IMG/VR virus record: IMGVR_UViG_3300025168_000611 | Location: 1-25,201 of that record | Origin: a virus | DNA: 25,201 bases | Strand: one strand, 5' to 3' | In this document: piece by piece, positions 4,458 to 12,408 of the stretch | How positions within the stretch are numbered: the stretch's first letter is position 1 | How the letters are laid out: the number at the start of each line of letters is the position of its first letter | Translations under genes and position numbers: made by a program | Notes under the pieces: model-generated | Told to the model about the DNA's origin: nothing | What the model saw: only the letters and a program-made list of their open reading frames with translations | The model's database searches: none

Positions 4458-5947
4458 ACCGATTTCTTTTTTTTATCAAAGATATTCCACCCTCTTGTTT
4501 TAACTACTGTAGACCTACTGTGTTTACCACTCGTTAATTGCTTTCCTTCTCCAGCTCCCATCAATAAATACTGCAAAGCATCATGAACATGGGAATATCT
4601 GTTTTTGTTTGGTCGTTCATCATATCTATCTCCAGCAGTTTGTAATCTTCTGTAATGATAACCACCATTAAAACCTTTTTTTAGATTGATGCATCTGTAA
4701 TCTAATAAAAATCCAGACTTACCTTCTATTAGTCTACCCAATGTTGTTTCGACAGATTCAATTCTAAGAGCAACATCATTACTAGGAGCTGGTCTACTTT
4801 TTAATCCATTTTGTCGCAGTATTTGAAAAGGAGTTGTTTCGTCAGTTTGCGCCCTTTGATCTCCAGCTGGATCGCCATATATTTCTATATCTAATCCTTT
4901 ATAATTTTTTGCAATCTCATGTTTAAGTAATTCGCTAAACCTTGATATACCCATATCAAAACATACAAGTTCTTGCAGTATAATCCATTTACCATTAGGA
5001 TACTTTTGACCAAAGACTGCTGCTGGAGTTAATCCAAAATCAATTCCTATAAAGACTGGCATAGTTCCTATTGCCAAAGGCTCACTTGATAAGTGTACTT
5101 CTTCTGCCCAATTAGGATATACTAATTTACCTTCCTCTAGTGAACCAAGTCTATTCATTACATAGACATCTATCCACCCTTTTGTTTTACCTTTAATAAT
5201 ATTTTCATAATATTTAGGTGTAAGATTTTGTTGATTTTCACATATATCACTAAACTGATACCCCATTAATTGTCCTTCCTTATCTTTAGTTTCTTTCATA
5301 GCCGAAGGTTGTGTATGAAATGACCAGTTATCTGGTTTTACTAACATTAATGTTTCTTCTCTTGAGAGATGATCTGGTACTGGTACATCTCCAGCCATGA
5401 TAGGCCACCAATGATCTTCTTCTGGAGCATTACTATCGGCTATTACTCCATACCATGTAGCACCTCCATCTCGCATACTAGGAAATCTTCCTACTCTCAT
5501 AGTACAAGCATCTATAATAGACTTGGGAAGTTCTCTTGCTTCATTAACCCACACTCCAGTAAGCTCTAAAGACAATAACTTCTTTACATCTTCTGGTCTA
5601 TCTAATGCTAGGAATATAACCTCTAACTCTATCTTACCTATATGTATTCTGTGTGTATAAGGTACTGACCAAGCAAATGAACCAAACTCATTTTCAGGAA
5701 ACCAGTCTAACCAAGTCTTAATAGTAGTCGTTTTAAGCTGTGGATTAGTGTTACGAATGACAGCCCACCTCGATTTTCGTATACCTTGTGCATTTGGTTC
5801 TTGTTGTAAGGCTCTTCGAAAAACCTCGATACAACAAGCCACAGATTTCCCACTTCCTACTGGCCCTCTTAATCCTCTAAAGAAGTTATCACTTTTTAGA
5901 AACTTCTTTAATGTGTTGCCATCTGGTTTGTAATTCAGTTCCACCAT
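4433..5947 (-). CDS. terL: Terminase large subunit (packaging ATPase and nuclease)
   Basis: A 504-residue motor that pumps DNA through the portal and cuts the concatemer. The ATPase domain has Walker A GPVGSGKS (residues 28-35) and Walker B GVWVNEARE (131-139, catalytic E136). The RNase H-like nuclease domain shows FIGIDFG (D303), IYGDPAGDQR (D359) and YSHVHDALQYLL (D456), the expected acidic triad. The length is usual for podovirus TerL. The ATG directly follows the stop codon of the 75-residue gene (TAAATG), so the two are probably translated together. Confidence 0.96.
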   Translation of the reverse strand: MVELNYKPDGNTLKKFLKSDNFFRGLRGPVGSGKSVACCIEVFRRALQQEPNAQGIRKSRWAVIRNTNPQLKTTTIKTWLDWFPENEFGSFAWSVPYTHRIHIGKIELEVIFLALDRPEDVKKLLSLELTGVWVNEARELPKSIIDACTMRVGRFPSMRDGGATWYGVIADSNAPEEDHWWPIMAGDVPVPDHLSREETLMLVKPDNWSFHTQPSAMKETKDKEGQLMGYQFSDICENQQNLTPKYYENIIKGKTKGWIDVYVMNRLGSLEEGKLVYPNWAEEVHLSSEPLAIGTMPVFIGIDFGLTPAAVFGQKYPNGKWIILQELVCFDMGISRFSELLKHEIAKNYKGLDIEIYGDPAGDQRAQTDETTPFQILRQNGLKSRPAPSNDVALRIESVETTLGRLIEGKSGFLLDYRCINLKKGFNGGYHYRRLQTAGDRYDERPNKNRYSHVHDALQYLLMGAGEGKQLTSGKHSRSTVVKTRGWNIFDKKKKSVWQNRING

Positions 5948-8357: not shown

Positions 8358-8377
8358 CATTTTATATATAATACTAA

Positions 8378-8405
8378 AGCTCTCTAGCAATAGAGGGCTT
8401 TTTTT
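8378..8405 (+). terminator. Rho-independent terminator after first early gene
   Basis: Nine-base-pair stem AGCTCTCTA (8378-8386) with TAGAGGGCT (8391-8399), one G-T pair, GCAA tetraloop of the stable GNRA class, then a run of T to 8405. It lies 20 bases after the stop at 8357. Confidence 0.9.
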
Positions 8406-8421
8406 ATGTCTAGAAAAATCG

Positions 8422-8441
8422 GCTCGGCCCTTCGGGCCTCG
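8422..8441 (+). repeat. Hairpin repeat copy 2
   Basis: GCTCGGCCCTTCGGGCCTCG forms GGCCC-TTC-GGGCC (8426-8438) and matches the copy at 7699-7718 at most positions. It stands between the terminator at 8378-8405 and the gene at 8531, so it is placed like a promoter or processing element. Confidence 0.55.
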
Positions 8442-8530
8442 CAGTACCATTTGGTATATAGTATTAACACAATAAATATTCTCATTTGGGGAGAGTTCCC
8501 TAGAGTAGTAACCGAACACGAAGGAGTAAT

Positions 8531-10763: not shown

Positions 10764-11678
10764 ATGACAAATACCGAACAATGTCAATTTCCAATTTCTG
10801 CACAATGTAAAGTAGAATTGGATACAAGACCTTTGTTTACTTGGCATCAAGCCGAAATAGATGAAGTACCAGATAGGGTAGCTTTGTATAGTACCGAAGG
10901 TAGTTATTTATCTACTGTAAGTAAACGAAGTGCTGATAATTTAAGAACTTATGATGAATTTGCTACTATGTTATCAGATGGGGTAACTGGTGGAAATCTT
11001 AATCTTGAGGGTGTTACTTGTGTGGATAATATATGGAATGACGGAAAAAGATTCAGTCGTTTAATGACTTTTCCACAGCATACATTTAATTTCTTACGAG
11101 AAGATTATCAATTACAATTATGGTCATGGACAGCATATGATTTATCATGGGCAGAACAATTTATATTTGGCCCACTTAATATTGTATGTTTAAATGGACA
11201 ATTTAGTGCTGATTGGAAAATTAGAGGTATGAGTAAAAAGAACTGGAATCAAAAAGCTAGTGTTAATGCATCTGACATTAATGCTGCTATTAGTTCTTTT
11301 AATGATTATCCAGAACAATTAGAATCAATGGCAAATGCTAGTGTAACTCATGATAATGTAAAACATTTATTTGAAAATACATTAGCAGAAATAAAAGATC
11401 ATATAAATCCAAGAGTAAGTGATTATAGAATGAAACAATTATCAGATTTATGGTCTACTTATGAACGAAAATTTGGTCAAAATCTATATGCAGTTTATCA
11501 AACTGCTACCGATTGGGCAAGTAACCCAGAAGGTAGAGGTATGAAAATGAATATGGTAAGAACAAGATCACAACAAGTTGTTGATATGTGTAAAACAGAT
11601 GATTGGTTAGCTTTATGTCATAATACAGTTAAAAAAGTATATGGACTTGCGCCAAGTCAAATATTAGCAACAGTTTAA
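10764..11678 (+). CDS. DUF932-like protein
   Basis: The frame is open from an ATG at 10746, but AAGGAG (10749-10754) lies inside that stretch and correctly positions the ATG at 10764, giving 304 residues (MTNTEQCQFPIS). The pattern SYLSTVSKRSADNLRTYDEF, AYDLSWAEQFIFGPLNIVCL-NG, and a late helical YERKFGQNLYAVYQTATDWA resembles the DUF932 group found in phages and plasmids, whose role is unknown. The family assignment is by eye and moderate. It is a large and probably abundant early protein, and is followed by a long non-coding stretch. Confidence 0.6.
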   Translation: MTNTEQCQFPISAQCKVELDTRPLFTWHQAEIDEVPDRVALYSTEGSYLSTVSKRSADNLRTYDEFATMLSDGVTGGNLNLEGVTCVDNIWNDGKRFSRLMTFPQHTFNFLREDYQLQLWSWTAYDLSWAEQFIFGPLNIVCLNGQFSADWKIRGMSKKNWNQKASVNASDINAAISSFNDYPEQLESMANASVTHDNVKHLFENTLAEIKDHINPRVSDYRMKQLSDLWSTYERKFGQNLYAVYQTATDWASNPEGRGMKMNMVRTRSQQVVDMCKTDDWLALCHNTVKKVYGLAPSQILATV

Positions 11679-11682
11679 AGAT

Positions 11683-11739
11683 TAAGGGCAAATACAAATT
11701 TTAACAATCTGTTAAATATGTAGTTTCAATTTGCCCTTA
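11683..11739 (+). other. Long hairpin after the DUF932-like gene
   Basis: Eleven perfect pairs, TAAGGGCAAAT (11683-11693) with ATTTGCCCTTA (11729-11739). The loop contains a second hairpin, TTAACA-ATC-TGTTAA (11701-11715). It begins four bases after the stop and could mark the 3' end of that transcript, although only a weak T-rich stretch follows. Confidence 0.6.
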
Positions 11740-12084
11740 TTAGTAATTCTATTCGTAATTCTAGATGATTTAACGAATGGGCTAGGAAGGGAAAACACAA
11801 GTGAGTACCTTCCGAATTGTGTAGGTTGTGGCTAAAACTACCATTCACTAAGGAGAAATCTAGTCAGTACCCAAAAGCGTAGTCCTACACTTATAGTAAG
11901 TGTTCCCCAACATTAGAAACAGAGCAGTAGGTTATTGCCGTAATAAGGATATCGCCCTACTGTTCACACTTTGGTCAAAGGCAACTGACGAGTTGTTAGC
12001 TGAAAATTGAAGGATAGTTCATCTGACCATTAGGCAAGTTGAAACGATATATACTACCTATAAAAGCCTCCAGATAAAAAAAAT

Positions 12085-12136
12085 AGGGAGTAAACGATGG
12101 CCTGATTAAATTCGAGTAGCACTAGTTTTACTCCCT
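12085..12136 (+). other. Ten-base-pair stem upstream of XRE gene
   Basis: AGGGAGTAAA (12085-12094) pairs perfectly with TTTACTCCCT (12127-12136) across a 32-base loop. It ends three bases before a TTGACA box, so it may close the structured RNA or insulate the promoter that follows. Confidence 0.55.
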
Positions 12137-12139
12137 TAC

Positions 12140-12169
12140 TTGACAAAAACCTATGTTTCACGATATGTA
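12140..12169 (+). promoter_or_regulatory. Candidate promoter and operator for the XRE regulator
   Basis: A consensus -35 TTGACA (12140-12145), an 18-base spacer and a weak -10 TATGTA (12164-12169). The expected start falls almost on the ATG at 12175, and no ribosome site is present, so the message may be leaderless. An imperfect inverted repeat GTTTCACGATATGTAAC overlaps the -10 region, as expected for autoregulation. The -10 match is poor (3 of 6). Confidence 0.4.
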
Positions 12170-12174
12170 ACAGT

Positions 12175-12408
12175 ATGAATAGACAAAATGAATTAGGAAT
12201 ATTTTTTCATAGTTTAATTCCACAATTTGTTAATCAAAGAAAAAAACTTAAATTATCTCAATCTTCAGTTGATGATTTAATAGGTTGTGCTAGAGGATTA
12301 GTATCCAAATGGGAAGTAGGAATTAGAAAACCATCAGGATTTCTATTTTGTTGTTGGGCAGATTCATTAAAATGTTCAATTATCTTAAAAGAAAACAAAA
12401 AAAAGTAA
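12175..12408 (+). CDS. XRE-family helix-turn-helix regulator
   Basis: A 77-residue protein with a Cro/CI-type domain: QRKKLKLSQSSVDDLIGCAR-GLVSKWEVGIRKPSG. The LSQ..VDDLIG..RGLVSKWE.G.RKPS sequence is the classic XRE helix-turn-helix, although the first turn (VDDLIGCA) is a little unusual. It probably represses an early promoter, perhaps its own, but no target is proved. No ribosome site precedes the ATG. The 3' end overlaps a Cys-rich gene in another frame by 37 bases. Confidence 0.85.
   Translation: MNRQNELGIFFHSLIPQFVNQRKKLKLSQSSVDDLIGCARGLVSKWEVGIRKPSGFLFCCWADSLKCSIILKENKKK

Follow-up and report, generated by a model that had tools for sequence, protein, structure and literature searches.

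What occupies 496 bases without a gene in the early region of a marine phage genome? Phage non-coding stretches of such size are mostly left unannotated. The stretch lies at positions 11679-12174 of IMG/VR record IMGVR_UViG_3300025168_000611, a complete contig of 25,201 bases that is called the window here. The original prediction, made from the letters alone, described a structured non-coding locus and proposed either a large phage RNA or a replication origin. Based on a comparison with relatives, we conclude that a SAR11-type podovirus almost certainly carries here, within its early operon, a hypervariable array of structured RNA cassettes, and that the functional form of the array is very probably RNA, not DNA. 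The closest isolate, Pelagibacter phage EXVC031P Hodr, has a portal protein 58% identical to that of the window and places the host group as SAR11-like. SAR11 bacteria are among the most abundant in the ocean.

Borders, composition and cassettes of the gene-free stretch

Between the stop codon at 11678 and the ATG at 12175 there are no open reading frames of at least 40 amino acids on the coding strand, in agreement with the predicted absence of genes. The G+C content of 0.36 is raised, as had been claimed, compared with about 0.25-0.33 for most neighbouring early-region windows. The predicted flanking regulator was identified as an HTH_3 gene (Table 1), which forms the downstream border of the array in the phage group of the window. 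The upstream border is a DUF932-family gene here and in some relatives, and a gene of about 125 amino acids or a ParB-like gene in others. A second early gap of the window, at 8358-8530, has a G+C content of 0.38 and contains an intrinsic-terminator-like hairpin, AAGCTCTCTAGCAATAGAGGGCTTTTTTT.

Where at least eight complementary arm pairs had been predicted, at least 11 were located exactly, the pseudoknot among them. The view that the stretch does not fit tRNA or tmRNA also held, with ARAGORN and Rfam both empty on the window; an Rfam search of 11600-12250 at E <= 10 returned no family and only three chance-level lncRNA matches. ARAGORN found no tRNA or tmRNA in the arrays of relatives, and Rfam searches of 20, 13, 16 and 11 relatives found manA-like RNA only, plus the known RNAs of S-CREM1.

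Table 1. Features of the array and its borders in the window
Feature	Position	Strand	Evidence or comment
DUF932-family gene, 310 aa	10746..11678	+	Pfam PF06067, E 4.8e-10
RNA cassette array (whole)	11679..12139	+	from DUF932-family stop codon to regulator -35 box; homologous variable gap in relatives
Cassette Wa	11682..11742	+	hairpin AAGGGCAAAT/ATTTGCCCTT with inner TTAACA/TGTTAA; common to L044/L164, L162 and L163
Arm pair AAGGGCAAAT/ATTTGCCCTT	11684-11693/11729-11738		
Arm pair TTAACA/TGTTAA	within 11701-11715		
Cassette Wb	11745..11846	+	hairpin ATTCGT/ACGAAT, then H-type pseudoknot of GGAAGG/CCTTCC and ACACAA/TTGTGT
Arm pair ATTCGT/ACGAAT	11751/11773		
Arm pair GAATGG/CCATTC	11775/11841		possible enclosing stem of Wb
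Arm pair GGAAGG/CCTTCC	11785/11808		pseudoknot, crossed by ACACAA/TTGTGT
Arm pair ACACAA/TTGTGT	11795/11817		pseudoknot, 11785-11822 in all
Cassette We	11898..11971	+	core UUCCCCAACAUUAGAAACAGAG within P1 (AAGUGU/ACACUU), beside P2 (CAGUAGG/CCUACUG)
Arm pair AAGTGT/ACACTT	11898/11966		
Arm pair CAGTAGG/CCTACTG	11925/11956		
Putative cassette Wf	11973..12028	+	GGUCA/UGACC around hairpin CAACU-GACG-AGUUG; folding only
Arm pair GGTCA/TGACC	11973/12024		
Arm pair CAACT/AGTTG	11982/11991		
Slot hairpin TAGGGAGTAAA...TTTACTCCC	12084..12135	+	conserved base, exchangeable inside; joins regulator promoter
Arm pair GGGAGTAAA/TTTACTCCC	12086/12127		
Regulator promoter TTGACA - 18 nt - TATGTA	12140..12169	+	-35 box 35 nt before ATG
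HTH_3 (XRE-like) regulator, 77 aa	12175..12408	+	Pfam PF01381, E 1.2e-6

Structure is conserved among relatives

Folded as a single sequence, the full 496 nt gave a z-score of -1.9. The 460 nt without the downstream promoter gave -3.1 on the plus strand (0 of 300 shuffles) and -1.6 on the minus strand, and local folds in 120-nt windows within the gap were unremarkable. Single-sequence folding of the stretch is thus only moderately better than chance and does not by itself suffice for a structured RNA. The strong evidence for structure is comparative, from the z-scores of the arrays and from compensatory changes in several cassettes. Thirty-seven arrays from relatives had a mean z-score of -3.4 on the plus strand, compared with -1.1 for neighbouring coding DNA.

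The window array was compared with three sequences, each of which covers part of it; 11846-11897 and Wf lie outside this coverage, and no counterpart of Wf was found among the relatives. Wa of L044 reads GGGCGAAT, a change of A-U to G-U that preserves pairing. Wb recurs with its pseudoknot in L162/L163, where an insert of about 23 nt forming a small hairpin lies between CCTTCC and TTGTGT and the pairing survives; the enclosing stem GAATGG/CCATTC is lost in L162. The core of We, UUCCCCAACAUUAGAAACAGAG, is identical in the window, L162/L163 and L265, yet both surrounding stems are replaced and still complementary: P1 reads AGUAAGUGU/ACACUUACU in L162 and AUGUUGUUGU/ACAACAACAU in L265, and P2 reads AGUUG/CAACU and GGUUGC/GCAACC, respectively.

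The window array contains neither of two cassettes that were analysed in its relatives, since the M1 model gave nothing above chance and Rfam gave no manA or wcaG. M1, of about 75 nt, consists of AACA followed by P1, P2 and P3, with the P3 loop pairing downstream as a pseudoknot. Its covariance model gathered 45 copies, and covariation was scored over 35 distinct rows in alignments of natural sequences only. Ten of 21 pairs were doubly changed, with 42 doubly changed cells compared with 10.3 in shuffles and at most six in slid controls. In L045 and L201, a P3 pair changed from G-C to C-G and a pseudoknot pair, absent from the alignment model, from C-G to A-U; in L085, P1 is replaced (UUCCUAAU/AUUAGGAA). 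The slot hairpin, TAGGG...CCC(C)AATGG, carries 16 distinct stems on the same base, with all four Watson-Crick types at positions 6 and 7. Its inside is exchangeable and in one case is a complete M3 module. Such compensatory changes, together with conserved loop sequences, demonstrate selection for an RNA fold. Relatives of the locus therefore did not diverge freely, nor did they reveal a conserved open reading frame, the two findings named beforehand as speaking against a structured RNA.

The exact M1 pattern was present in 50 viral contigs. M1 sites are mostly at the regulator gene, and otherwise downstream of an SSB gene or flanked by small early genes; the larger M1-bearing contigs tested have one copy per genome. 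At 40 distinct sites, M1 was co-oriented with the flanking genes in 36 cases and opposite in none. In L201, positions 4495-4733 hold two tandem M1-slot units that are mutually diverged (50 and 90 bits with the M1 model), that is, paralogous cassettes.

These observations bear on the possibility that the stretch acts as DNA, for example as a replication origin or as a packaging or recombination site working through DNA hairpins. Inverted repeats near replication and recombination genes would suit such an element. However, M1 never runs against the flanking genes, G-U far exceeds A-C in conserved pairs, and some relatives lack the region and have a gap of 19 nt. There is also no skew inflection at the site: the minimum of the cumulative GC skew is at about 7.0-7.5 kb, in the divergent promoter region. 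The proposed replication origin is accordingly not borne out, and we regard a DNA element as highly improbable.

One slot with exchangeable contents

Relatives of the regulator in viral contigs numbered 186, of which 80 were kept. Among these approximately 80 relatives, the same gap ranges from 19 nt (array-less) to about 600 nt while its neighbourhood is retained, and cassettes measure about 40-190 nt. Relatives of the upstream gene likewise retain the neighbourhood around a variable gap. In 37 non-redundant arrays, 32 of 33 motifs were seen in 30 distinct orders; the motif list was drawn up by eye and a few arrays are clipped at contig ends, so that the true number of RNA families is approximate. 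Arrays differ even where the promoter and regulator gene are 97-100% identical, and 50 pairs at least 97% identical over this region share a mean cassette fraction of 0.46. In L051 and L057, for example, promoter and regulator gene are identical, with arrays M1-slot-M10-M2 and M1-M2, respectively. The early region of EXVC031P Hodr has no such gap, nor does that of Lederberg, and blastn of the region against phage isolates gave short chance matches only.

Because single modules are retained in relatives while the remainder is dropped, inserted or swapped, the stretch consists of small RNAs in an array rather than a single large fold. The proposed large phage RNA is therefore upheld in part. A structured phage RNA is supported by covariation, by the constant orientation and by promoter-borne copies (see below); modular turnover and the absence of GOLLD, ROOL or other Rfam matches, even at E 10, do not support a single large ornate RNA. 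Although its 496 nt, several helices and one possible long-range stem would be compatible with an RNA of this type, we give that alternative hardly any credence.

Taken together, these comparisons show several independent RNA folds, with the operon strand the functional one in the families tested. They also show that cassettes have come and gone and have been exchanged between phages at one fixed site, and that cassettes are present at other early sites too. Small genes may travel in arrays too: the array of L062, upstream of its regulator gene, has a reading frame of about 50 codons (MEWNVNFKLKRKEWDD...) between RNA cassettes, and a related sequence lies in another early gap, at 11245-11433 of G004.

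A further alternative is mosaic debris: selfish or neutral hairpins, of no use to the phage, would spread through homologous recombination between common flanking sequences, and a YqaJ-type exonuclease as well as another recombination-type protein is encoded by the phages. Flanks common to the elements (GAACA and CCCCAATGG), the exchange of slot contents and the tandem units of L201 are in line with such spread. This explanation is nevertheless very unlikely, given the selection on RNA fold described above and the persistence of arrays in compact genomes of about 35 kb.

A manA-like cassette

A sister-array cassette of about 175 nt matches manA RNA (RF01745), with 40.0 bits, an E value of 6e-9 and a full-length model match (1-192) in L144. 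The best score was 43.5 bits (L203, E 7e-8), and scores of 33-44 bits were obtained in L203, L227, L188, L198, L251, L204, L185 and L236. All array copies score below the RF01745 gathering cut-off of 55.2 bits; they have the same helix order as manA, with covariation. Judged by its helices, the cassette is a diverged manA, homologous in fold, which we term manA-like as it lies below the curated bound. Among 26 diverse copies, 13 of 27 pairs were doubly changed. The covariation table of these pairs contains 106 G-U cells and a single A-C cell, which establishes the operon strand as the functional one and counts against a DNA hairpin.

The manA-like core is present in 87 viral contigs. In a simple orientation test of 71, it was in the same direction in 52, opposite in four and mixed in 15. 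Exact manA-like and M1 patterns had no matches in 84,980 bacterial and archaeal genomes, a search with phage-derived patterns that diverged copies could escape.

In earlier work, manA was put forward as a riboswitch candidate acting in cis (PMC2864571), and the array cassettes could similarly be riboswitch-like elements or other sensors of cis-regulatory type, the role suggested for both manA and wcaG RNAs. One cassette being manA-like fits this idea, as do the copies in L195, L190 and L199, which lie between a promoter and a gene. A sensor would be expected in a leader position before a constant downstream gene; instead, neighbours are variable, cyanophage manA included. In every cyanophage checked these differ, manA following pstS, regA, gp23 or a hypothetical gene and preceding a hypothetical gene, purL or a tRNA. 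Moreover, the regulator has its own promoter after the array, which is thus not its leader. We consider sensors of this kind improbable.

In two cyanophages, manA ends 0-1 nt before a tRNA gene: S-CREM1 (L264; manA at 1716-1930, tRNA at 1930-2002) and S-SSM7 (GU071098; 151363-151563 and 151564-151634). This abutment suggests a processed RNA gene rather than a 5' leader, and tRNA processing would free the manA 3' end in both phages. By Rfam, wcaG and abiF RNAs lie among the same tRNAs as manA in S-CREM1; such a cluster of tRNAs with manA, wcaG and abiF is on record for one cyanophage (PMC9964418). In P-SSM4 (L285), the hypothetical ORF PSSM4_169.1 (CDS 885-1058) overlaps a 184-bit manA match at 830-1015 and is likely spurious; SSSM5_127 of S-SSM5 overlaps a manA match in the same way.

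Promoters and junctions

Of 26 distinct upstream sequences from array-bearing loci, 23 have TTGACA at precisely 35 nt ahead of the ATG; the six distinct ones from array-less relatives all lack it. The presence of an array thus coincides with independent initiation of the regulator gene. From the distance of the -35 box, the regulator mRNA is probably leaderless. In other contigs, some cassette families occur singly and are preceded by a promoter, as judged from promoter-like sequences: We lies directly behind TTGACA-16-TAGGAT in L265, and manA-like RNA directly behind a promoter-like sequence in L195, L190, L197/L199, L257 and L256.

Junction sequences are specific to phage groups. In a second group, AAGTTTC precedes different cassettes 15 times compared with 0.2 expected. 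In the group of the window, GAACATT takes this place 23 times compared with 0.8 expected, a count that is inflated by recurrent M1 (the element is GAACA). The AAGTTTC-punctuated arrays of the second group (L248, L234, L198, L193, L251 and L218) contain at least six further unclassified cassette types. By resemblance, AAGTTT junctions might be RNase E sites, but general RNWUU counts in arrays of this group (68 versus 65 expected) are not above chance and lend this idea no support.

The main rival to a trans-acting role is protection of early mRNA in cis, even though we hold it to be rather unlikely. As intercistronic elements, the folds would guard the 3' end of the preceding early mRNA or give it its form, and would shield the regulator gene, which starts anew at a promoter of its own; their diversity would reflect neutral turnover of interchangeable barriers. 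Cassettes begin immediately behind a stop codon and run in the direction of the operon, which is consistent with this, and so is a regulator promoter that is confined to array-bearing loci. Simple hairpins would suffice for such a barrier, however, yet the arrays have conserved loops, pseudoknots and about 32 motifs, and the same families occur behind their own promoters and beside tRNA genes.

Discussion

The preferred reading is an array of exchangeable RNA cassettes. The array would be transcribed early along with the upstream gene, and its RNAs would be cut out or left as protected fragments. Once released, they could act in trans on host factors, possibly as decoys or mimics that disarm a host RNA-processing defence, or in the control of host RNA metabolism. 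On the sequence evidence, the chances that the cassettes are free trans-acting small RNAs are about even. Against a trans role, arrays occupy the interval from a stop codon to the following gene, as expected of cis-acting elements, and promoter-borne manA-like RNA precedes a gene in several contigs, in which case it might serve as a leader.

That cassettes turn over so rapidly at one fixed accessory site of the early region suggests a role in an arms race, and counter-defence would be the most economical reason for such exchange; that the cassettes serve counter-defence in particular is nonetheless doubtful. Precedents of phage RNA in counter-defence are the Racr RNAs (PMC10651486) and the pseudo-ToxI RNA of phiTE (PMC3475682). 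These are likewise small RNAs of phages, the phiTE RNA being repeat-borne and quick to evolve, and resemble the cassettes in the proposed way of working. This likeness is proposed from turnover and position.

Other known systems share single properties with the arrays. The manA (RF01745) and wcaG (RF01761) RNAs are borne by marine phages, and the sister-array cassette shares the manA helix order; unlike these RNAs, array copies fall below the cut-off and many lie in tandem after a stop codon. In tRNA and non-coding RNA clusters of T4-like cyanophages such as S-CREM1, several structured RNAs similarly follow one another head to tail on a single strand in the space between genes, whereas the SAR11-type arrays are without tRNAs and most of their cassettes without a family. 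GOLLD and ROOL are also large non-coding structured stretches of phages, but the array is not one fold, does not match them and has modules that exchange independently. We found no description of such arrays in the open-access literature searched. Single parts have known kin, as manA illustrates. For the locus as a whole, in which unclassified structured RNAs form an exchangeable array and are joined by sequences specific to each phage group, no counterpart was found there.

In conclusion, we tentatively propose that marine phages carry exchangeable RNA cassette arrays, put together in the manner of gene cassettes, with group-specific junctions and dozens of families including manA, which may supply evolving trans-acting RNAs against RNA-based functions of the host, defence among them. 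One slot yields about 32 recurrent motifs, with no Rfam family except manA, in relatives of SAR11 phages, and points to an overlooked RNA toolkit of abundant marine phages. A riboswitch candidate since 2010, manA can be seen anew as an RNA cassette of phages that travels from array to array and is able to abut tRNA genes. If the trans action is true, the arrays would be for RNA what the known anti-defence islands are for proteins.
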